Positions 6,232 through 58,845 of a stretch of 64,000 nucleotides of DNA are shown here, piece after piece. A program made the position numbers and the translations under genes. Each line of letters starts with the position of its first letter. The stretch's first letter is position 1. The stretch covers positions 11,453,957 through 11,517,956 of the forward strand of contig CM050450.1 of the NCBI GenBank assembly GCA_027563935.2, written 5' to 3'. Under the pieces are notes generated by a model that did no database searches, was not told the DNA's origin, and worked only from the letters and a program-made list of their open reading frames with translations. This DNA is from Costus lasius (Eukaryota; Streptophyta; Magnoliopsida; Zingiberales; Costaceae).

Positions 6232-6677
6232 TGTTAGATCTATTTGAATATCTTGCTCTAGATTGAATGGAAAAATACTGTAATAAAAGACATACGGGAT
6301 TTCATGATACTGTGAATTTAACCGGAGTGATCTTCTGACTGATTGTGTTATTCGTCAAGAGAGGCGGGGCGGTCGATGGGAACCAAACTAAAAACCTCTC
6401 GACAAGAACCTTACACCTAATCCAGGGACCACACCTATATATAGAAAAAACCTAATGGGCATAATTACTTATCAGTCCATCAGAGATAAGACAATTATGC
6501 CCCCCAGGGATTCTACATAATAAAATAGTCTTTTTCCATACTCTAATTAATAGATGACAATAAATAAATACGAGATTAAATTATATACGATTAAATATTA
6601 CAGTGCATGTATATCTACATGCCCAAATACAATTTATTATGCATGTACATAATGCATAGTTCACATAGGTCCTAACA
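6232..6677 (-). repeat. copia 5' LTR (right copy)
   Basis: This 446-bp repeat pairs with 24-469 and borders the primer binding site, so it is the 5' LTR of the minus-strand element. Confidence 0.93.
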
Positions 6678-18810: not shown

Positions 18811-19267
18811 TTCTTGGCTGCCACCATTAGAGGTGGCCAACGGGCCGGCCCGGCACGACACGGGCCGGGCCGTGCCCGGCCCGTTGACCAAGTCAACGGG
18901 CCGCGGGCGGCCCGTGGCCCGGCTCGGGCCGTGCTGGGCCGGAGGTTCGCGGCCCGCGGGCCGGGCCAGGCACGGCACGGACCCGGGCCAGGCACGGCAC
19001 GAACCCCGGGCCGGGCCAGGCACGGCACGCGGGCCGGGCCAGGCACGGCACGCGGGCCGGGCCAGGCACGGCACGAACCCCGGGCCGGGCCAGGCACGGC
19101 ACGGCACGACAATTCTTCTGCATTTTTACCTAAATGCCCTCATAATAGTTATAAAAATTTTAAAAGTTAGGGATATAATTGTCTTTATGGTATAAAATTA
19201 CCATTTTAGCCCCTTTTAATAATTAAAAATAGGGTATAAATATGTAATTATACACCTAATTCATCCC

Positions 19268-38454: not shown

Positions 38455-38890
38455 CGCGATGCGATAGGATCGGACGGTGAAGATACATGGCGCTAACCGC
38501 CAAGAACGTTATCGGGTTGTTCACCTCGTGGAGGTAATAGAAGGGAATAGAAACCCGCCGAGTTGAGGCTCGTCAAACCCTCCTGCGAAGTACCGTCGAT
38601 TATTAAAATATTTGTTCTATTTATGGGACGGTCCAGATCTCTTGGTACGTTTTGACGTCGCGGAGCTGGGTGATTTCCGTTACGTTTGCCCCGGTCGAAT
38701 GCGGCTCAAAAGACTTGGTGGTGTCACATAGTCCGTTGGATCCAAATCGGACGGTTATCGTGAATGAGTCCCGACTTTGTCCGCGGACATGTGGCTTCGC
38801 ACGAGCGAGAGTGGGCCTCGTATGGGTTCAAGCTCGTAACTGACTTCAGGGCCCAGGTCCTGCCAACTAGCGATCGAGTAGGCTCCATGG
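38455..38890 (-). repeat. Promoter-proximal segment shared with the galactinol synthase promoter
   Basis: Read on the minus strand, this sequence matches 58385-58845 over about 440 bp with scattered changes. Shared words include TACTCGATCG, GTCCGATTTGGATCCAACGG, GTAACGGAAATCACCCAGCT, TACCAAGAGATCTGGACCGT and CTTCACCGTCCGATCC. It ends about 95 bp before the AP-3 mu start codon, so it would hold that gene's promoter. Confidence 0.88.
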
Positions 38891-39809: not shown

Positions 39810-41060
39810 TATGTGTCAAGCCCGAGTCCGGGTCAAGGTCAACGAATGATAGCGCCCACAGATATAGTAGGCGTTTCCCGCAAATGCACGGGTCTATTAA
39901 AGTAATAAAATATCGATCACACAGGGACTAATGGGCAAATACCGACAGATCTCGAAATGGCTAGCTAGATGATGTTGAAATTGGTGAAGTTTAAGATAAT
40001 GAAATAATTAAAAGTGCAGGAATGTAAACAGAGAAAATCACATAAGAGGATTCTAATGAGAAGATGTATCAAGATATGGATTCACCACATTGATTCCTTA
40101 CAGTTGAATAGCCAAAATCTATTACCAATGTCCTATCAAGTTCAGGGGACTCAGCTTCCTTGTCACGTAGGTAGCTCCCCTCCAATAATCTTGTCTGCTT
40201 CCACGAACTAGATTACCAGTCCAATCCGTAGGGTTCTAACGTGCGGTCAGACGAGTGTCTTTCCACAATGTCTAAGATTCTTATAATCCTCGCAAATACG
40301 TACAGACCCGCAAGCGAGGTTTTACCCTCCTAAAGATGTTGAACCGTACTTGAGGTGATTAAAGACTCAAACGCCCATTTTCGGGTAGCGTAGGCATAGC
40401 GTACAGACGGAATGGATAAACTCTCAACCAAGTGGGTCTGACGCTCGGTCGGACAAGAGGCTCTCCGCAGCGTCTGAAGCTCCCTAAAATCTCGCGAGCG
40501 AGTACAGATCTACGAGCGAGTTTTTATCCCTAAGATCTGATTTACAAACCTCACCTTGGTGTTTTCCTAAGTGAGTACAGACCCACAGGCAAGTTTTCTC
40601 CTTTAGATCCGATTAATGAACCTCACCTTTGCGACTTAAGGCTCAAGCATACCTTTCCGGATAATGCTTTCCTTTAATCCTACAAGTAAGTACAACTATG
40701 CAAGCGAGAGTTTTTCCTAGAAAAGCTGAATAACAACCCTTACTCGAGGGGTTAAAGGTTCGAGCATATCTTTCAGGGTAATGCAGGCATTGCACGCACA
40801 CAAGGTCGAGCAAGGACTTTAGCAAATAAACCTAACTATCACAACTAATAAATCGTCAAGAGCTACCCCACATCCTGATTTAGTGTTTAGCCTAGTATTA
40901 TCATCATGAAAGTGCAAACAATAGTCTTTAACAATACACGCATAGGCAAGTTTGTGCAGGAATTACAAAGGAAAGGTAAGATCATATAATACTTTGCATG
41001 GATTATACAATAAACGCAGCAAATCGAATGTAACGCAAGAGATCTTTCCTTACAAAATCG
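39810..41060. repeat. Probable retrotransposon relic with degenerate internal repeats
   Basis: The segment begins with GTGTCAAGCCCGAGTCCGG and soon has GCACGGGTCTATTAAAGTAATAAAATA, words I associate with non-coding parts of plant LTR elements. From about 40240 to 40820 it has imperfect repeats of a unit with GAGTACAGATCCACGAGCGAG, CCTCACC and TCTGACGCTCGGTCGG. No coding domain was found. Confidence 0.4.
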
Positions 41061-41067
41061 GGCAACG

Positions 41068-44000
41068 TCCGCTCACTGAAATAACAGCTCCTTAGGTCCA
41101 GCTTTTGCAGCAGAGGGAATTCTCTTAAAAGCATCAGTAACCCAACATCAGAATGCCTAACATTGCCCATCAGTATTCAGTGCACATTGCGACTATACTC
41201 ACCAATATAGCCAAGACCTACATCAGAAAGCCCTCTAGGTCTCAGATACTGAGCAAATTTCCTCAACTTTGTGCAACCCTTCAACACAGCACAAACACCA
41301 TTGTCAAGTGGTAATTCTGTTATCCTCTCTTCTCCGTCAAGCTAAACGAGCAGAAAATCACATAGGTTTCTACTGAAATTCCCAAGGGATTCAAGTCCTG
41401 AATTTGCTATATTAGAGACATATACTGCCAAGTATTCTAATTCAGAACTAGGGTTGAACATACGGTACCGGTACAGAAATACCATATTGAAATTTTGCGG
41501 TAATCGGTATTTTGGTACCGGTACCGAAATTCGATTTCGGACTTTGGTACCGGTACCGTTACCTAAAACCTAATTCAGAAAAATCCTAAACTCCCAAACC
41601 TATATATATTATTTAATTAAAAGTATTAATTTTTTATTATTTTATTTACTTACTAATCCCATACGCCAAACCCTAATCGGCTAATCCCTAATTTGCTAAA
41701 TCCCTAAATTTTGGGAGTTTTTCGAAATAAATTTCGAGAGTTCGGCACCAATCTCGAACTCCAGAATTAGAATTCGGTACTAGTACTGGTACCTACAATT
41801 TAAATTTTGGGAGTTCGGGACCGGGACCCATTTGCTCACCCCTTGTAGTTGCCTCGGCCAACGCTCGCTCACTGATATAACAACTCCTGAGCACTAGCTT
41901 TTGGAATAGAGGGCATACTCTTGAAAACATCAGTAACCCAACATCAGAATCCCTAACATTTCCCATCGGTATCCAGCACACAATGTGACTATACTCACCA
42001 ATTAGGCAAGACCTACATCAGAAAGCCATCCAAGTCTCAGATACAGAGCAAATTTCCTCAGGTTTTTGCAACCCTGCAACAGAGCACAAACACCATTGTC
42101 AAGAGGTAATCCTGTTATCCTCTCTTCTCCGTCAAGTAAAACGAGCCAAAAATCACATAGGTTTCTACTGAAATTGCCAAGGGATTCAAGTCCTGAATTT
42201 GCTATATTAGAGACATATATTGCCAAGTATTGTAGTTCAGGACTAGGGCTGAGCATCCGGTACCGATTCTGAAATACTGTACCGGTACCGAAATTCTATT
42301 TGGGACTTCGATACCGGTACCGTTACCTAAAACCTAATTCGGGAAAATCCCTATCTCCCGAACTCCCGAACCTATATATATTATTTAAATAAAAATATAA
42401 TTTTTTTATTATTTTATTTACTTACTAATCCCTTATCCCTAACCTTAATGGGCTATTATTTTATTATTATTTTTAGGAGTTCGGTACCAGTCCCGAACTC
42501 CCGAATTAGAATTCAGTACTGGTAACTACAATTTAAACTTCAGGAGTTCGGGAATGGTACCGATCCCGAACTCTCTTTTGCTCACCCCTAGTAGTTGCCT
42601 CAGCCCACATCCGCTCACTGAAATAACAGCTCACTAAAATAACAGCAGAGGGCATCCTCTTGAAAACATCAGTAACCCAACATTTTAATCCCAAACATTT
42701 CCCATCAGTATCCAGCGCACATTGCGACTATACTCACCAACATAGCCAAGACCTACATAAGAAGGCCCTCTAGGACTCAGATACAGAGTAAATTTCCTCA
42801 GCTTTGTGCAACCCTACAACAGAGCACGAACACCATTGTCAAGTGGTAATTCTGTTATCCTCTCTTCTCCGTCAAGTAAAACGAGCCGAATATCACAGGC
42901 TTCTACTGAATTTGCCAAGGGATTCAAGTCCTGAATTTGCTATATCAGAGACATATACTGCCAAGTATTCTAGTTTAGAACTAGGGCTAAGCAAACGGTA
43001 TTGGTACCAAAATACCGTACTAATATTTTGCAGTATTCGGTATTTCGGTACTAATACTTCAGTACTTCGATACTTCGCTACCGGTACAGAAATTTTTTTT
43101 GGGACTACGGTACCGGTACCGTTACCTAAAACTTATTTCAAAAAAATCCTAAACTCCTGAACCTATATATATTATTTAATTAAAAATAATAATTATTTAT
43201 TATTTTATTTACTTACAAATCCCTTATCCCTAACCCTAATCGGCTAATCCGCTTATGGCTAATCTCTAATTTGCTAAATCCCTAAATTTTGAGAGTCTGG
43301 TACTAGTCCCAAACTCCCAAATTAGAATTACGTACTTGTACCGGTACCTATAATTTAAATTTCGGGAGTTCGGGACCGAGAGTTCAGTCCCGGTACCTGT
43401 TTGCTCACCCCTAGTAGTTGCCTCGGCCAACTCCTGCTCACTGAAATAACTCCTTAGCTCTAGCTTTTGCAGCAGAGGGCATACTCTTGAAAGAATCAGT
43501 AACCCAACATCAGAATCCCTAACATTTCCCATCAGTATCCAGTGCACATTGCGACTATACTCACCAATATAGCCACGACCTACATCAGAAAGCCCTCTAG
43601 GTCTCGGATACAGAGCAAATTTCCTCAGCTTTGTGCAACCCTACAACCGAGCATGAACACCAATGTCAAGAGGTAATTATGTTATCCTCTCTAATCCGTC
43701 AAGTAAAACGAGCCAAAAATCACATAGGTTTCTTTTGAAACTGCTCAAGTCCTGAACTTGCTATATCTGAGACATATACTGCGAAGTGTTCTAGTTCAGG
43801 ATTAGGGCAGAGCATATAGCACCGGCAACGAAATACCGTACTGAATTTTGTGGTATGCGGTATTTCGGTACCGATATTTCGATACCGATACCGATACCAA
43901 AAACCTAATTCGAGAAAATACCGAACTCCCGAACTCCCGAACCTATATATATTGTTTAATTAAATATATTAAATATTAATTATTTTATTTACTTAGTAAT

Positions 44001-44360
44001 CCCTTATCCATCCCTAAATTTTGGGAGTTCGGGATTTTTCCAAAATAAATTTTGGGAGTTCGGTACCAATCCCGAACTCCTGAATTAGAATTCGGTATCA
44101 ATACCGGTACCTATAATTTAAATTTCCAAAGTTCAGGACCGGAAGTTCGGAACCGGTACCAGTCCCAAACTCCCGTTTGCTCAACCTTAGTAATTGCATC
44201 GGCCAACGTCCGCTCACTGAAATAACAGCTCCTTAGCTCTAGCTTTTGCAGCAGAGGGCATCCTCTTGAAAGCATCAGTAACCCAACATCAGAATCCCTA
44301 ACATTTCCCATTAGTATCCAGCGCACATTACGACTATACTCACCAATATAGCCAAGACCT
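41068..44360 (-). pseudogene. Tandem array of COI1-like gene fragments with hAT-like spacers
   Basis: Five fragments (about 41068-41458, 41857-42248, 42606-42990, 43429-43808, 44200-44360) encode on the minus strand part of the leucine-rich repeats of the jasmonate receptor F-box protein COI1. The second fragment reads PELQYLAIYVSNIANSGLES, NLCDFWLVLLDGEERITG, LPLDNGVCALLQGC and then, in another frame, LRSCYISERALAEA. All copies have stops or frameshifts and cover about 130 of some 600 residues. Each is followed by a spacer of roughly 350-440 bp that starts near TAGGGCTGAGCA and ends near TGCTCACCCCTAG and is full of GGTACCGG. The last copy is cut at 44360. The whole unit (fragment plus spacer, about 745-825 bp) has been amplified together. 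Confidence 0.85.
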
Positions 44361-45537: not shown

Positions 45538-48500
45538 CTACACTTCTGCTGAAGGTATGTCACTAAGATTCAAACCCTCTGTGGGTAAATCTGGCGTCAG
45601 GGGCCCCAAACTACCTTCGGAGTTGAGAGTCAATGAACTCTGCCAAAAAGAAAGAAAATAGAAATAGTTAGATGCACTATATGAGACGCAAGAATGTATC
45701 CAATGTGAATTACAACCGTAGTGAATATGAAAGTTTAATAATTCTAGTACATACAAAAGCATGGTTGTTCAAAGACCAAAACGATTATTATATAATATGA
45801 GTTTTATATGAAGAAAGAAGTTATTCATTTCATAATTCCTTAAAAGAACCAAGCTACATCGGGATAATGTACTTGACAGACGGATATGAAGATTTATGCA
45901 AATTGTTTCTCCAGGTAAATAAGAAATGATGAAAAAAAACCTCAGGCTGGAACCTAAGCACGTCGGCACGAGCCATGGCCTCTGCTTGGGCTATCCTCTG
46001 CCGGAATGAGTGAGCCATCTCATCAGCCTGATGCATGGTACAACGAAGTCTCAGCATTTACCAATTTTTATAGAAGAATCCAAGCATCAGTTTTACCTTC
46101 TCGAATACAAGCTTTGGGTTGCGAATCATATCACCAGGGGTAGGTTCCAGTTTTTTAGTAGAAAGGCCTACTCGGCCTCTTTCACGATCATAACTTAGTA
46201 TCATTACCTTTGTTTTCAATAAAAGTTAAAGGGATGAGTTCCAGAGGCAAACTAACAAACAGACATGTGGAAACTAAAATAAATACCTTCAAGGTGTCAC
46301 CAGGTTGCAGGACCGTCGAGATGTCTGAGATACGATCATGGCTAATCTGGCTAACATGGAGTAAACCGCTAATCCCACCAATTTCAACAAAGGCACCGTA
46401 CGGTTTAAGGTTTTGAACAGTTCCCAAGACCACTGATCCAATGCCATGTTCAGCCTGACCATCAGTGATGGCCTTGCGGTTGCTGAGAATAAGCCTAGAT
46501 TGTTCCTCATCAACCTCAACAAATTTAAGTGGCAGCTTCTTATCGATGAGCTCTTCCGCTGTTGCTTTCTGATTTTATTTAAATACACATTGTATGATAA
46601 TCAAATATTTGCAGCATGATGACTTGAGAAATTCATTTGCAACCCATTAGACTATCTGATGTAGGGGGGCATATAGGAGGTGATATAAATTCTTACACTA
46701 GGTTATGCAATTGAACTTCATGACTAATTTCAGGCAATAACAGTAATTACGATGCAAACAACTAATAAATAATGCACACAAGTTAAGTGAAGTTCTATCA
46801 AACGTGCACATAAATATAGGGTAGATACGTCAATAATAACAAGTAAAATTGCCTACATTAGGGTGCAAGAAATAGGGATTTTTTAACTTTTTTTTAATGG
46901 GTCACTTTCAGATGGCAAGTTGGAACCAGAACCGAGTCAAGAATAGCAAAATTTGGGATTTCACCCAATCAATTGGAACGGCTTAGCTTCTCGTTCCTTC
47001 TTTAGCCCCTTCGCACATACATGAATAGAGAGAAAGCTAGCGTTAAATCAGCACAGGGCATTGGTGTTGAAGTAGGTTGCTGGCGTCGAAGGCGTTTGAT
47101 TTGTCTAGAGGTGACGCTGGCGACATCCAAGGATACTGGTGTCCAAGGCGTCTGATCTAACTGGAGGTGGCGCTGGCGACGTCCGAGGATACTGGCGTCG
47201 GAGACTAGGAGATAGGTGGCGGGTGTCGTCAGTGTGGAGCGAAGGCAGCGGCTAGATTGGCGGATAGCAAACGTCAGGCAGGAGGGAAGATAAGTGCTGA
47301 ATTTCAGAGGGAGCTGTGGTGGAGAGGCATTGTGGGAGTCGTCGCTGAGAGAGAGGATTTGAGGCTCAGCGAGGTTCGGTTGGTGAGCGGCGACTGTGGT
47401 CAAGTCAGAATTGAGGAGGGCAGAGGATGAAAAACGGGGGCGAGCGTGGATGATGGCAAGGTATGTGAAGATGGAGGTGGTGAGCGGATGTGGTGGCGGC
47501 ATGAACAATCTAGATGAGGATAGAAGGCGATCAGCTGGTTCAGCAGGGAAGAAGGTCAGGACGAAGGGAAACTCAGGACAAAAGGATCTTGGCGAAGGGA
47601 CGGTGAATCATAGGAGGGAGATGAAAATCCGGATGGCAGAAAACTCTAGCCCTCACGGCCAACACCCTCACGGTGCGAGAACGGCTTTGCGCCGACAAAA
47701 AGAAGCATAGAAATTTTATTAAAGCAATTCGATTTCTTTCTCTAGAATTACAAGTGCTTAAATAGACTACTATTCTAACTAAACTTAGACAAATGTGTCC
47801 TACTATGAATTGAATTACATACCAAAGATATAAAATTCCTTAATAACTAATAAAATAAAATCACTTAAAATATAATAACTTGATAAAAAAAAATAATTCA
47901 ACTGCTTGTCAAGTAGTGGGCATGCTTCCGATGGGCCATTTTGGATCTTCTAGGCCTGTCTTCTATATTCTCATCAATTCTCCCCCGGGCCGGGGGGGGG
48001 GGGGGGGAATTGTCGAAAGTATAGTCATCCAGCTTTCTCCGGTGCAATCTGTCGAAGTTCATCTTTAAGAATCCACGTGTTATCTGTGCCTTGGATAGTG
48101 CGTAATAGAATGATATATCTTCCACATTAAAAATAAAACTAATTCCTAAATTTTTAGACACATCCACAATATAGGCATTATCACTTATTTTATGTTTAAT
48201 CATAAATGGACATATACTTCTTGCATGCAACTTCTTGATAGAACCAAGTGGAAGTCTCACAGCTCTTAGTTTCACCATCACTCTATCTCTCTCACTGAAT
48301 TTTGTGGCCTATGATGTTTGTCTGCAAAGCTCTTGTCCTTATTATTGCTTTCTGAGATTTTATGCCTAATTTCAGTATGAAATTCATAGATATATTTAAC
48401 AAAGAAATCAGCATATTGTGATCGTCGGGTAGAAGCAGGTAGGGATAGTAGATCAATTGGTTTGTTAGGTTGCATACTAAGGACCACTTGAAATAGGCTA

Positions 48501-51500
48501 AGACCAGTTGTCATGTTCACCACACTATTAAATGCAAACTCAACTATTGGCAATATATCTTCTCAGTTGGTTACATGATCCCTAATAAGGCATCTTAATA
48601 AGTTACCTAAACTTCTATTAACGACTTCAGGCTGACCGTCTGTTTGAGGGTAGTTAGCAGAAAGAAATTTAAGCTTTGTGTCTAACAATGTCTACAAGTC
48701 TTCCAAAAGTAACTTACAAAATGGATGTCTCTCTCAGAAGTGATCGTGCAGGGTATACCATGCAATCGAACAATTTCCTTAAAATATATAGCAGCTATGT
48801 GAGAGACATCAGCAGTTTTCTGACATGGTATAAAGTGGGTCATCTTAAAAAATCGATCTACAACAACGAGGATGGAATCATGTCATGCTCGTGTGCGCAC
48901 AACCTTAGAACAAAATCTATACTAACATCTTGCCAAGTTGCGTGGGTACAAGTAAGGGTATATATAATCCTGTGTTTTTCTTTCTAGTTTTCATGTGTTG
49001 GCAAGTTTCACAATGTCTAACTATTCTTGCGACGTCAGTAGCTAACTTAAGCCAATAAAACTGATCGACAACTAGACTAGTGGTCCGGTCCCTACCATGA
49101 TGTCTAGTTACTCCCCTAGAATGTAATTCTCAAATAAAGAAGTCACGCATTGACATACGAGGAATGCAAATCCTATTACCGTGATATAGGTATCCATCTC
49201 GTAGGGCAAAATTAGAATCAACTGATCATTTGATAGCTTGGTGAAGGTTTTAGAAAAATCTGGGTAGTCAAAATAAGCCATCTTAATTTCATCAAAACCC
49301 ACAATCTCAACTCGCATAGTGTTGAGTAAAATATGAACCCTACTCAAAGCATCCGTGACTTTGTTTTCTTTATCGGATTTGTGTTTAATGACAAAAAAAA
49401 ATTGTCGCAGATATTCAAACCATTTTGCATTCCGTGGATTTAAACGCTTTTGAGTATTAAGATAGGTAGTCACTAAAAAGGACAAACTCCTAATGTAAAA
49501 GGCAATGACGCCAATGTCGTAAGGATTGCACAACTGCATAAAACTCCTTATCATACGTTGAATATTTCAATTTAGCATCAGCTAACTTTTCACTAAAAAA
49601 TACAACGGGCTGTCCTTCTTGACTTAACATGCCACCAATGCCTACACCTGAAGTGTCGCATGCAACCTCAAAACTTGTTTGAACCTGCGAGGAAGCCTAG
49701 TCTGTCATCTAATCTAGGGATCGAAAACTTATACTTCACAGTGATCTATTTATAGCCCGACAGTCAATACACATTCTCCAACTTTCATTCTTCTTAGGAG
49801 TGAGAGGGCAGGAACAGCACACGGGCTAAGACTCTCTTGGATAAAGCCTTTGCGAAGTAAATCATTGACTTGGCATTGTAATTCGGCATGCTTAGTTGGT
49901 GTCATCCCACATTATAGGAGATTAGGTAAGGATGAACCTAACACTAAGTCAATGGCATGTTGAATATCCCTAGTTGGGGGTAATTCATCAGGTATGATAT
50001 CAACAAATTGGTCTAGTGGTACCTGACCATCGAGATCTATTGGTTGACTAGTAAGGAGAGTGACTTTTTTTATCATCAAAGTAAACACTACTTTCGACTA
50101 AAGGATATCAGAAATAAAGGGTGTAGGTCAAATAATGTTCATGGGCTTATCATTCAATGAGCCATTTTTTATCACGCCCTTGGATATCGAATCCCTTAAT
50201 TCTTTTGGAGGAGATAGAGTTAGCCGAAGTTTTGTCCTTTGTATTCAAAAACATAGGTATTGTTAAATCCAAAGTGAGTAACATTAAGGTCATACAACCA
50301 AGGTCGACCTAAAAGAATATGGGCAACGTTCATGCTAAACACATCACACCACACCTGATCAGAATATATAGCAAAGTATATAGGCACCTTGCATCTGTGA
50401 GTGATAGGTATGTTTGACTTATCTATCCATGTGACCGAATATGGGAGGGGATGTACTTCTAGGCGAAGTCCAAATTTGGTGATAGCTGAGCGAGACACAA
50501 CATTAAGGCTGCTACCTCCATCGATCACAACATTTTATACTATGTCAGAAAACTGATGATGCCTCTCACGTAGCTACTATATATTTTAAGGAAATTGTTC
50601 CATGGTGTACCCCGCACGATCACTTCTGATAGAGACATCCATTTTGTAAGTAACTTTTGGAAGACTTTATAGACATTATTAGGCACAAAACTCAAATTTT
50701 CTTTTCCTTACTACCCTCAAACAGATGGTCAGACTGAAGTCGTTAGTAGAAGATTAGGTGACTTATTAAGATAAGTGTTGTTAAATAGCCACAATAGCGG
50801 CACTATAGCATTTTTCCATAACGGTTTTTGAGCAATCCGCTATGAAACGCTATAGCACCGCTATAGCGGATAGGACCACATTATTATGTTTGTAAGTTTG
50901 AGAAATTAAAATTATGGCTTAAATTGACTTAGTACTATGTTATCTTTCTTTATATAATTTATTTTATTTTTATATAGTTTAATTCATTAGATATATAACA
51001 TATATTTCAAACGTTATACTTAAATTTTTATGTATATAATATATATTTCAAACGCTATATGACTTCCACTATTTGCCCGCAACGCAATCCGCTATATCAT
51101 ATTGCGGATTTTTAGCTTTTTGCTATTTTCCGCGATCCGCCATTGATAACACTGATTAAGATGTCATATTAGGAATCATGTAACCAACTGGGAAGATATA
51201 TTGCCAACAGCTGGATTTGCATTCAATAGTGTGGTGAGCAGGACAACTCGTCTTAGCTCATTTCAAGTGTTCCTTAGTATTAGGGGTGTCCAAATGATTC
51301 AACCCAAACCGAACCGAACTGAATTCAAACCGAACCGAAAAACTAAAAAAAAATCCAAACCGAAACCGAACCGAACTTTCTAAAACCCGTACCGAAATTT
51401 CAGTTCGAGTTTGGTTCGGTTTGGGTTAAACCGACCGAATATATATATATATATATAAATAATTATACTATTATATTAATATCTTGTTTATACTATTATA

Positions 51501-54500
51501 TTATTAATTTTTAATAAAATAATAAAATAATATATTTTATATAAAAATATTAATATTATATTCAAATTTTGGTTTGTTCGATTCAACCCGAACTGAATTG
51601 CACCAAACAGAAAACCGAACCGAAATTTGTTTTACCCACCTTTAACTGAACCGAACCGAACCGAATTTGACTTGAACCGAATCAAACCAAAAATTTCAGT
51701 TCGGTTCATCGGGTTGAACCGTTTTTTGGACACCCCTACTTGGTATGCAACCAAACAAACCAATTGATTTACTACCCCTACCTACTTCTACCCAATGATC
51801 AAAATCGGTTGATTCCTTTGTTAAACAGATCAATGAACTTTATACTGAAATCAGGCATAAAATCTCATAAAGTAATAATAAGTACAAAAGCTTCGAATAC
51901 AAACATCGTAGGCTACAAAATTTTAGTGAGAGAGATAGAGTGATGGTGAGACTAAAGAGCTGAGAGACTTCCACCTTGTTCTATCAAGAAATTGCATGAA
52001 AGAAGTATAGGTCCATTTACGATTAAACATAAAATAAGTGATAATGCCTATGTTGTGGATGTGCCTAAAAATTTAGGAATTAGTCCTATTTTTAATGTGG
52101 AAGATATATCATTACATTATGCACCGGAGAAACCAAAATCAAATGAATCAACACCACAACATAGTACAAGTGAAGTAGAAGATGACATCGAAGCCATCGA
52201 TCAAATTATTCTTCATCCTGATCAAGAAGATCATCAATACCTAATAAAATAGAGAAATTGTCCACACACAAATAACACGTGGATTCTTGAAGATGCACTT
52301 CGACAGATTGCACCAGAGAAGCTAGATGACTATACTTTCGACAATTCACCGGAGCTGAATTTTTTGCCCCCGGGAGAATTAATGAGAATATAGAAGACAG
52401 GCCTAGAATATAGAAGACGTGCCTAGAATATCCAAAATGGCCCATCGGAAGCCTCCCCGCTACCGGACAAAGCAGCTGAATTTTTTATTTTTGTCAAGTT
52501 ATTATATTTTAAGTAATTTTCTTTTATTAGTTATTAGGGAATTTTATATTTTTGGCATATAATTCAATTCCTAGTAGGACATGTTTGTCTAAGTTTAGCT
52601 AGGATAGTAGTCTATTTAAGCACTTGTAATTCTAGAGAAAGAGATCGATTTACTTAATAAAATTTCTTTGCTTCTTATTGTCGGCGCAAAGCCTTTGCGT
52701 TGTCGCACCGTGAGGGTGTTGGCCATAAGGGCTAGAGTTTCTTGTCATCCAAATTTTCATCCCCACTCTTGCGATTCACCATCCCTTCGCCAAGATCCCT
52801 TTGTCTCGAGTTTCCCTTCGTCCCGACCTTCTTCCCTACCGAACCAGCTGATCGCCTTCCATCCTCATCCAAATTGTTCACGCCGCCACCACTTCCACTC
52901 ACCACCTCCATCTTCGCATATCTCGCCATCATCCACGCTCGACCCCAATTTTCATCTGCTGCTCTCCTCAATTCCATCCTGACCACAATCGCCGCCTCTC
53001 GCTCACCGACCAAACCTCATCAAGCCCCAAATCCACTCTCTCTTAGCAATGACTCCCACAACGCCTCTCCACCACAGCGCCCTCTGAAATCCGACACTGT
53101 TCTTCCCTCCCGCCAGACACCTGCTATTCGCCGATCTAGCCGCTACCTTCACTCCACGCCGACGACACCCGCCACCTATCTCCTAGTTGCCAACGCCAGT
53201 ATCCTCGGACGTCGCCAGCGCCACCTCTAGTCAGATCAGACGCCTTCGACGCCAGTATCCCCGAATGTCGCTAGCGTCACCTCCAACCAAATCAAATGCC
53301 TTCGACACCAGCAACATGCTTCAACGCCAACGCCCTTTGCTGACTCAACGCCAGCTTTCTCTTAATTCACGTTCGCGCGAAGGGGCTAAAGAAGGAACGA
53401 GAAGCTGAGCCATTCCAATTGATGGGGTGAAATCCCAAATTTTACTATTCTTGACTCGGTTCTAGTTCCAACGTGCCATCTGAAATTGACCTATTAAAAA
53501 AAAATAAAAATTCCCTATTTCTTATAGCCAAATTTAAGCAATTTTACAAGTGATTATTAACGTATCTACACTATATTTCTGTGCATGTTTGATAGAACCC
53601 CACTTAACTTGTGAGCATAATTTATTAGTTATTTGCATCGTAATTTACTGTTATTGCCCCATGAGATTTTTGCTATAGTGCCTGAAATTAGTCATGAACT
53701 TCAATTGCATACCCTAGTGTAAGAATTCATATCACCTCCTATATTTCCCCTACATCACTATCATATTCTCATATCAAAATTGCTGGAGTTGAAAATTTAC
53801 GCCACATTAGAAGAATAAAATGAACCTATATACCAGCTTAAGAAGGTGAAAATTTGATAGAAGTTGTAACTCTGACAAGGTCCGGAGTGACTAGTGTAAT
53901 TTATGTAATTGGCCCTAATGCATGGGTGCTTTGTCAAGATGATAACAAGTACTAGTTTGCATGCCACCCAAGTTAGGATTTTTAAGGGTGCATGATATAT
54001 GAAGAGCGGAATGTGCAAAATAAGTCCACCCAACTCTTATGAAGCATGTCTGGAAAGTATCTGAAGAATGGTGCATCGGTAAATAAAATCTTAGGGATAT
54101 CCAAGTCCAAAACTGAAGATTTAACACCATGTAACCCACTTCCGTCCTTGATCCTGCGTTGTACTTCTTATTTCTCTGATATAGTGAATATCACTTGTTC
54201 ACTGAGCCGAGTTGCAGGGTGTTGGGTTTGCACTATGTAGATGCACATTTTACTCATGGCCTTACAATTGTTTGAGTCTTTACACATTTCATAGTTTGAG
54301 CATTGTCCCGTCAAGAGCAAGATAATATACCACATGGAATTCTTAGGATTAAAGTTAGATCTGTGACACATTGCTGCAGTTGAGGAAGCTTTCATAAATC
54401 TCAATTGCAATTACGGACATGGATGTTTCACTGAATGCATCCACCCCATTATCACATTTTCATTTAGTATTTTGTTCGTAGAACGAGACGAAAACAAATT

Positions 54501-57500
54501 TTCTAACTTGTCTTACCATTCATATGTTTAATATCAAATGCTTACAGATCACAACCACATGTGCAGCTATCTTGCACACCGATATTAAGAATGTTTCTAG
54601 GCATCTAATTAGAGAGATCGTGCCAGTAACGGATAGGATACTAAAAAGCAATAAAAGATAATCGATTAAAATCAAGACTAAGAAGAAGGCACGAGTGATG
54701 TCTTGTATATCTCAACTGATGAACCAGAAAAACAGATTGCAGTTATAACTCACATTATAATCAAACTTCAGAGGCCGCACTCATTGCAATAACAGGTTTA
54801 AACATATAAACAGAAGAAGAGGAACTAACTATTGATACTTGCGAAAATGGAACAAATCCACGAAGTCCCTCCACAATGGCTATGATGCCTCCTTTGTTTC
54901 CACTGACAACCTGCAATCGTAAATAGTATTATCAGAATTGAAAACAAAGAGAAATGTAGCAAATATGAAATTAAATGAGTTTTGCCCAACAATATTTTTG
55001 GATGATATCATCTGCTGACAAGTTCAAATTCCTAGTCAACCCAAAATAAGGCATGAATAAACTAGATAAGATGGAGTGTATTATCTATTCCAACAAAAAA
55101 AAAGGGAAACTTGTGTGTGACACTAAGTACTTTGAATAGAATCTCTTTACAGAATAAATCTCTTCTTCTTCTTTATATAGAATACCTACAAGCTATAATA
55201 TACCTAATGTATCGTAGCTTAGTACTTAGTATTGACTACTAAGACAAACTATTATACTAATATAAATTACTATGTAGTATATTGTATATAATATACCAAT
55301 AATTTGTGTACTTTATATAGAATACCTACAAGCTACAATATACCTAATGTATTGTATACTATTATATGGTGTACCCATAGTACATTATAGTACATTATAG
55401 TATATATAGTATGCCTATATAGGATACCTAAGTGTACAATTTGTTAGGGCATTATGAGTAACCTAATATGTAGTGTCCAACCATGAAAGCAACCAAGTGT
55501 GAGGGGGACAACAACAAAGATACTCGTATAGAAAGACAAGAACCATAAAAGCATATAGTAAGTTGGAGACAATGAAGACATGTGATGAACTAAAGACAAA
55601 GTGGGACAAAGCCTCAGAGGGAAAACAACAATGAAGAAAGCATGCACAATGAAGGCGGAGAAAAAAATGATAAAGGCACTCAATTAAGATGACAAAGATG
55701 TCACTAATAAAACAAACAAAAACTACAAAGATGACAAACATGTATTATAAGGTTTGAAATACCGGTCCAAGCTAAGACTGCTGTTTTCGATGTAAGTTAG
55801 GACTAGTGTTCCCGTCTAAGCTCGAATTGAACAAAACCAAGTGCAGCTTCTTCTTCAGTTTGCCACGACTAGAATTTTTTTCCTTCATGGAAGCTTCTTC
55901 CTTCATTCACTGCTTCAACCACGCGCGAAAGCTTCTTCCTTTGTTTGCCGCTTTAGCCACAAACAACTCCTACCTTCATCCACTTCTATCGGTCATCAGC
56001 CGCCAACTGGCGTTCCCCAGGACTGTGTACCGGTCCATGTGCGGACCAATTGTACTAATATATATATATATATATACATACATATGTCAATACATATCAA
56101 ATAATACCAATCCAAGCAAATATCAATGCACCAATATGGGCAAAGATTGAAAAACTTTCAAACTATTGATGACCTTAAAGAGTCAAGCATATTATACTTG
56201 TCCATAAGAGTCAAGCGGTATCATCCAGTCCTACTAATCCTTCAACCTGAATCAACGATCCCACCTCATTTGTAATCATGTGATTATAGAATGGTTCACT
56301 TGATTCAGTTCTTTGTTTCTATTAACAAAACATCCCCTTTTTCTTCACTCTTCCAGAACCGGTACAGAAATTGGTGCTTTTTCTACTTTTTTGACCTTAG
56401 TGACTAGGGGGTTTGGGGGAAGTAGCCGATTGACCCAGATCGTGATTTTAACCATCATACCCCGAGAACAAAGGGTATGTTGCAACCTCCATCTATGCAA
56501 TCTTATAATGCTAAATAGAAGTACATGGTCACAAAATCAAACACATTAGAAAATACACAACAATACAAAGAATATTGATTGAGTGGCTAGGAAATTCTTA
56601 TTCAACTCTAGAAGAAGAAATATAAAGCCAAAGGCAAAAGAGAAAATGTATGGCAGTGTTATAGCCACACACTCCATAATCATTTATCCTCTTCAATTGA
56701 ACAACAAATTGAACACCTCACTGCAAGTCCAACATCTATTTGTTTGCTTCACACATTTGCCAACCATTTTTGCCACTAGCCAAGGATTCATTATAAAGAG
56801 TTCAAAGGGTTGGACAAGCCTCCCTTTGATAGGTTATTGTCAGACATGCCAACTATCATTAGAAGTTCAAGATTCCTATCAAGTAATTGGTTGCAATTAT
56901 TCCACATATGGACAAATAGGTCATGTATCAACCTCGTGGTGTTCTTGCATGGGCATGCCACTTGGATCCATGAACCCAATTAATCAATATCATATCTCCA
57001 AGTGCTAACCTGATGCTCATTATAAGCAAGAGTGACATAAGTCGTGCAGCTAGATTCATTAAATTGTCTTAATTTACATGTGCAAAACTTCTCGATTTGC
57101 CACTCAAAAAATTTATTATAACTAGTTATCCTCAACATTAGCCTATACATTTTAGTCAAATCATGGACAAGGTTATTAGAATCAAGTCCCTACCTAGAAG
57201 TGATGAAAGCTCCAAAAGATCAAACCATAAGATTGAACCATAGGATACAAAAGGTTCGACCAAATAGCATTCAGGAAAGAGCAAGTAACATCAGTGAAAC
57301 AGAATGGAAAAAATACAACAACTCTCTGAAAAAATAGCATTCCGCAATCCACTTACGCATAAGAATAAACGAGACTGAATCATCGTTAGCAAGATGGAGG
57401 ACTGACTTCTAACAACAGCAAGTAACAGCGCAGAGGACAAGAATCTCACCTTACCGTTGACGACGACGTCTTCAGCCTGGAGCTGCCTGCACCTTTCCCA

Positions 57501-58384: not shown

Positions 58385-58845
58385 TTACTCGATCGCCAGT
58401 TGGCAAGGCCTGGACCTCTGGTTCCGCCATACGGGCCGAATTCAGTTAGAATCGCGAACCCATACAAGGCCCATTCTCGCTCGTCCGGAGCCACGTGTCC
58501 GCGGACAAAGTGGGGACTCATTCGCCATAACTGTCCGATTTGGATCCAACGGATCATGAGACACCGCCAATTCTTTTGAGCAACATGCGACCGGGGTAAA
58601 TGTAACGGAAATCACCCAGCTCCTTGACAACAAAAATGTACCAAGAGATCTGGACCGTCCAATAAATAGAAAAAATTATTTTAATAATCGATGGTACTTC
58701 ATTCGGGCGGGGGAGTTTTACGAGCCTCTCCAAAGCTCGGGCGGGTTTCCAGTCCCTTCTATTATCTCCACGAAGTGACCCAACTCGAGAACGTTCTTAG
58801 CGGCTAGCACCCTGCCTCTTCACCGTCCGATCCGATCGCGAGACA
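58385..58845 (+). repeat. Promoter segment shared with the AP-3 mu promoter
   Basis: The segment matches the minus strand of 38455-38890 along nearly its full length. It ends about 165 bp before the galactinol synthase ATG. It has the same orientation relative to its gene as the other copy has to AP-3 mu. Confidence 0.88.
58492..58497 (+). promoter_or_regulatory. G-box inside the shared promoter segment
   Basis: CACGTG here; the matching place in the AP-3 mu copy (38788-38793) reads CACATG on the gene strand. Confidence 0.45.

Follow-up and report, generated by a model that had tools for sequence, protein, structure and literature searches.

How can an element flanked by long terminal repeats (LTRs) come to lie in a chromosome with those repeats inverted? 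This question is raised by a 7,101-bp unit at 46657-53757 of a 64,000-nucleotide stretch of Costus lasius DNA (GenBank assembly GCA_027563935.2, contig CM050450.1, positions 11,453,957 to 11,517,956 of the forward strand), which is called the window below. An LTR stands at either end of the unit, the two being inverted relative to each other, and the whole occupies part of an intron of RPS1. We put at about even the chance that it arose when an aberrant mirror-image dimer of truncated gypsy complementary DNAs (cDNAs), with two U5 ends, integrated once. One integration event is well supported by what can be read at its borders, namely an exact 5-bp target-site duplication (TSD) at two complete U5 ends. 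The sample is one case at one locus.

Inverted LTRs within a single target-site duplication

The left LTR occupies 46657-47976 (minus strand; 1,320 bp) and the right LTR 52380-53757 (plus strand; 1,378 bp), and the outer end of each is its 3' (U5) end. Read directly, the outer termini TGATGTAGG and CCTACATCA are reverse complements across nine bases. Twenty inverted-repeat pairs with 81-94% complementarity lie within 46665-53750, two of which (I12 and I15) are off-register matches of a short LTR repeat. The LTR limits were placed by eye, using the TGATG...CATCA ends and the adjoining purine tract; the first bases of the right LTR are TA, not TG. When the arms were compared with the window by blastn (E 1e-3), each matched only itself, the opposite arm and the short LTR repeat. 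This search gave no additional LTR match within the unit and hence no third, internal LTR.

The unit is flanked by CTATC at 46652-46656 and again at 53758-53762. When TSD lengths of 3 to 8 were compared, the two flanks agreed at 5 bp and at no other length. Two flanking 5-mers would match by chance with a probability of 0.0012 (from base composition) or 0.0013 (as counted), which is about 1/748 to 1/811. A single TSD at two complete U5 ends indicates that both were attached to the target in one integrase reaction. This argument is strong, though it rests on five bases. The original prediction for this locus had described LTRs with their tail ends outward and an exact CTATC/CTATC bracket spanning 46652..53762, and the sequence agrees on each point.

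The same five bases bear on the idea that two elements of one family inserted independently in opposite orientations, after which the intervening DNA was deleted from inside one to inside the other. The CTATC match would then be a coincidence of the frequency given above, which argues against this history. On the other side, plant elements that lie close together often recombine. Sabot and Schulman record 20 recombinant complexes versus 2 attributed to template switching in about 7 Mb of Triticeae sequence (PMC1950507). Two independent insertions had been argued against in the original prediction. They are indeed disfavored by the TSD odds, but we would call them unlikely rather than discard them.

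Two further candidates were rejected on logical grounds. A nested insertion followed by inversion through the LTRs would leave the start of a 5' LTR at the outer left end. A chromosomal fold-back after a break would be expected to place host DNA in the mirror image.

Composition of the two arms

Judged by its domains, each arm represents the 3' portion of a Ty3/gypsy (Metaviridae) element. Along the minus strand, the left arm presents a protease, a remnant of reverse transcriptase (RT), RNase H, integrase, a purine tract and the LTR, in that order. The protease fragment (50220-50530, minus strand) runs up to the inner junction and has 15 homologues (best E 3.6e-35); its match to Pfam Asp_protease_2 (E 0.19) falls under the cut-off of that profile. 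The RT core upstream of RNase H is mostly gone, as judged by eye, and no profile matched the RT of this arm. The RNase H domain (49490-49696, minus strand; PF17919, E 4.3e-18) precedes the integrase H2C2 zinc-binding domain (48917-49129, minus strand; PF17921, E 6.8e-13), which is present in a single copy. These two domains and the protease fragment belong to a loop of ∼48838-50530 that is found in the left arm only.

The remainder of the left-arm integrase, at 47987-48882 on the minus strand, consists of part of the core and the C-terminal SH3 domain. Positions 48682-48882 match Ty3 Gag-Pol (PDB 7q5b, E 3.5e-10), and the SH3 domain (SH3_Tf2-1) is PF24626 (E 3.8e-10). No Pfam family matched the core piece. 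Beside the left LTR, at 47977-47986 on the minus strand, a purine tract can be read that would correspond to a polypurine tract (PPT). The right arm, as delimited by alignment to the left, carries integrase from mid-core, the SH3 domain (PF24626, E 2.1e-11) and a PPT-like tract at 50531-52379 on the plus strand.

Neither arm reaches upstream of the protease, so that a 5' LTR or gag could not be accommodated. A 5' LTR was not found in either arm. No primer binding site (PBS) or gag is present either, as the arms end at the protease, and no dedicated PBS or gag search was made. The order of protease, RT, RNase H and integrase is that of Ty3/gypsy elements, as are TG...CA LTRs with a 5-bp TSD, but the LTRs of such elements stand in direct orientation around the core and those of the unit are inverted. 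The unit is derived from a Ty3/gypsy element, yet it is not a canonical member of that group.

Two smaller features of the arms were observed. Stop-to-stop open frames of 201 amino acids (47002-47607) and 164 amino acids (52736-53230) lie in the left and right LTRs, respectively, and are perhaps due to chance in a GC-rich part of the LTR. Past the integrase SH3 domain, 133 nt at 52127-52259 are present in the right arm only, a difference that looks like a deletion from the left arm.

This composition also bears on a linearized autointegration circle, in which self-integration would generate a circle with inverted LTRs that later reinserted. Inverted 2-LTR circles are known for Ty elements and retroviruses (PMC4751563). 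By its mechanism, however, autointegration consumes LTR ends inside the circle, whereas both U5 ends of the unit stand exactly at the TSD. Moreover, a portion of pol that should be single in such a product is duplicated in inverted orientation. We find this origin barely credible.

Divergence and decay of the arms

A gapped alignment of the two arms, a check proposed along with the original prediction, has 2,172 columns, of which 273 differ (87.4% identity; Kimura two-parameter distance [K2P] 0.139). The LTRs are 87.6% identical to each other; in template-switching complexes the outer LTRs are nearly identical, and the value seen here would also be expected from an old insertion. K2P is nearly equal for the LTR (0.138) and internal (0.142) portions, and divergence is even across 21 windows of 100 columns (chi2 20.9, 20 degrees of freedom, p 0.40). 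There are 184 transitions versus 89 transversions, and changes of C/G to T/A are balanced between the arms (90 versus 94).

The integrase region was used to examine selection. At 242 shared codons, the arms differ 32, 28 and 23 times at codon positions 1, 2 and 3, and dN/dS is 0.80 (bootstrap 0.49-1.50; three codons holding stops were excluded). These values indicate that most differences between the arms arose without strong selection on the protein. The two arms have one in-frame integrase TAG in common, at 48694 on the left and 50670 on the right. Other lesions, identified by eye, are private: the left arm has a stop of its own and two frame changes, and the right arm has two of each. This pattern suggests that both arms probably descend from a single template that already carried a broken integrase, with the remaining decay occurring after insertion. 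The common TAG also points to a defective shared source that would have been mobilized in trans. The idea that the arms were intact at insertion was dropped because the TAG is in both of them.

Even divergence and a common stop fit a single integration. The stop would also fit two independent insertions by copies of one defective lineage. At plant substitution rates of 1.3e-8 to 2.6e-9 per site per year, the insertion would be 5 to 27 million years old, which is an upper figure if the arms differed initially.

The right arm alone contains two smaller insertions, each a miniature inverted-repeat transposable element (MITE) that we take to be of hAT type from its 8-bp TSD and termini. The first, at 50773-51154, is flanked by exact copies of ATTAAGAT at 50765-50772 and 51155-51162. 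The second, at 51281-51738, has a 14-bp terminal inverted repeat and an 8-bp TSD with one mismatch (CTTAGTAT/CTTGGTAT). Both entered after insertion of the unit. Neither these MITEs nor the loss of the left-arm RT core had been noted in the original prediction.

Inverted repeats are prone to misassembly, and a false inversion or misjoin might create an apparent palindrome. However, since the arms differ at 273 of 2,172 positions and the right arm bears two TSD-flanked MITEs, the arms are not mirror duplicates. A TSD would also be unexpected from a misjoin. An assembly artefact is highly improbable.

The inner junction

The limits of arm homology place the inner junction at 50530-50534. Right-arm homology begins at 50531, and left-arm protease homology extends to 50531 and possibly to 50534. 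A junction at about 50531-50548, with protease sequence of one copy against integrase of the other, had been anticipated in the original prediction. The overlap between the arms was deduced from protein homologues only. At the edge of the junction, the unit has asparagine, and lysine stands in the five homologues whose sequence clearly extends that far (P0001, P0002, P0004, P0007 and P0010). The overlap is thus 1 nt, or 4 nt if this residue has mutated.

An overlap of either size fits end joining, in keeping with a concerted integration. In such an event, one integrase complex would take the U5 ends of two separate cDNAs, and host end joining would seal their trimmed inner ends. The same anatomy, TSD and unequal arms are predicted, and a template switch is unnecessary. 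The inner ends, however, lie in the coding region and have no 5' LTR, so that both cDNAs must have been truncated or trimmed far inward. We regard this explanation as possible but doubtful.

A model for one integration of a mirror-image cDNA

A mirror-image dimer made before integration would account for the unit as follows. When LTR elements are reverse transcribed, completion of the 3' LTR comes early, while the minus strand is still being extended. An early double-stranded 3' LTR could thus offer an integrase-competent U5 end at a time when the minus strand is still heading toward the 5' part of the element. Incomplete transcripts of this kind have the U5 end required by integrase but lack the 5' LTR, gag and a variable part of pol, and so would match the gaps that are observed. 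Arms that stop at the protease are as expected from truncated reverse transcripts. The order of the reverse transcription steps is listed in PMC12789967.

The unit would go back to two such molecules that shared a particle, or to a single one folded back on itself, with identical or closely similar templates. They would have been joined at their growing minus-strand ends, one in the protease and the other in mid-integrase. RT could have made the join by jumping to the other minus strand or through fold-back priming, or host end joining could have sealed the ends once two U5 ends had been captured in concert; we infer that the join preceded integration and was made by RT. The product would be a linear DNA with a U5 end on each side and no 5' LTR. 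Integrase may have been supplied in trans by another copy, as the template probably carried the integrase stop. The enzyme would then have accepted both U5 ends as if they were an ordinary pair, making one insertion with a 5-bp TSD in intron 3 of RPS1. The arms would have decayed afterwards, and the two MITEs would have entered the right arm.

Several observations weigh against this model. The 5-bp match was picked after the fact and is modest evidence in that respect. The junction carries no clear signature of template switching, as far as its bases reveal, and the unequal arms could be explained by a later central deletion in a longer palindrome. The common TAG could be widespread in the family or have arisen twice in parallel. 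Should the source have been a defective lineage, part of the neutral pattern could predate the insertion, and the codon test says less than it appears to. The common TAG therefore weakens the argument from neutral divergence but favors a common defective ancestor, and these effects pull the odds in opposite directions. In addition, a longer original palindrome that was trimmed centrally would give the same junction.

The original prediction held that an already palindromic cDNA was integrated in one event. Its single integration is upheld by the TSD at the U5 ends, whereas a palindrome formed before integration is plausible and end joining fits equally well. Even so, the mirror-image dimer has about as good a prospect of being right as of being wrong, and the unit most likely represents a rare kind of faulty insertion.

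The host gene and its surroundings

Comparison of its product identifies the host gene as that for chloroplast ribosomal protein S1 (RPS1, bS1c), encoded on the minus strand. The best matches of the joined exons are three Musa proteins (82-84% identity), which speaks for a monocot plant. Intron 3, the site of insertion as had been proposed, spans 46569-54829 on the minus strand and has GT...AG ends; the exons were counted by eye. The left TSD starts 83 bases from the 3' end of this intron.

Other repeats occur in the window. Downstream of RPS1, about four tandem copies of a 740-830 nt unit (61-90% identical) lie at 41031-44347. RPS1 is flanked by inverted repeat pieces at 38461-38847 and 58438-58839 that are 85-90% complementary, lie ∼20 kb apart and are perhaps copies of one dispersed repeat. 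A direct repeat of 300 nt (24-323 and 6232-6531; 91% identical, 6.2 kb apart), both copies of which start near TGTTAGAT, is perhaps the LTR pair of another element. At 18896-19103, a GC-rich array is made of repeat copies that overlap one another, with units like GGGCCGGGCCAGGCACGGCACG at intervals of 22-37 nt. Rfam at gathering scores gave no match in the window.

Potential consequences of the unit

From its position, the unit would place both arms in the RPS1 pre-mRNA, which could fold into a long hairpin. Uninterrupted matched runs of at least 21 bases between the arms number 13 today, the longest being 39, and the stem would have been nearer perfect at the time of insertion.

It is conceivable, if rather improbable, that truncated gypsy cDNAs dimerize to palindromes with two U5 ends that are integrated as a recurrent class. 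Within a transcribed gene, a pre-mRNA hairpin of >2 kb could then seed small interfering RNAs (siRNAs) against the whole family, as a one-step retrotransposon counterpart of maize Mu killer. The unit suggests that two U5 ends of truncated reverse transcripts are usable by integrase in vivo, in which case an incomplete cDNA would not always be a dead end. It would also represent a direct route from a retrotransposon to an intragenic inverted repeat, an arrangement that is linked to Mu killer silencing. The signature to be sought, inverted LTRs with one TSD and no 5' LTR, is simple to screen for, and programs that look for direct LTRs would overlook it.

Comparison with known systems

DIRS-like elements have inverted terminal repeats, a tyrosine recombinase and no TSD. 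The unit differs in having integrase domains and a 5-bp TSD; Pfam scans of 11 open reading frames from the arms found no tyrosine recombinase, and integrase domains were found instead.

The template-switching complexes described in PMC1950507 resemble the unit in being aberrant two-copy composites with a single flanking TSD, for which abnormal template switching is invoked. Those complexes have three direct LTRs and two full cores, whereas the unit has two inverted LTRs and truncated cores, and neither a third, internal LTR nor two complete cores was found. Autointegration products of Ty1 and retroviruses (PMC4751563) share inverted LTRs that arise from an aberrant cDNA step. They are circular and extrachromosomal with buried LTR ends, whereas the unit is linear and integrated with its ends at the TSD.

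No integrated inverted-LTR unit within one TSD was recognized in searches of an open-access library, a scope that makes this negative a weak sign of novelty. For a locust Gypsy-25 element, PMC8786324 names an "inverted pair of LTRs" as its classic structure, possibly through loose wording. Truncated retrotransposon circles are discussed in PMC11044480, the pertinent parts of which do not cover inverted LTRs.

Maize Mu killer (PMC3440606) is similar in that its two termini go back to one and the same end of the parent element, and partial coding sequence is present twice, with the copies abutting as an inverted duplication. The Mu killer hairpin RNA is proposed to arise by transcription that continues from a neighboring gene. 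Mu killer derives from a DNA transposon, and silencing of the parent is established for it, whereas silencing by the Costus unit is a possibility. What the unit has in common with such a locus is an inverted duplication inside what is, by sequence, a transcription unit, here intron 3 of RPS1.

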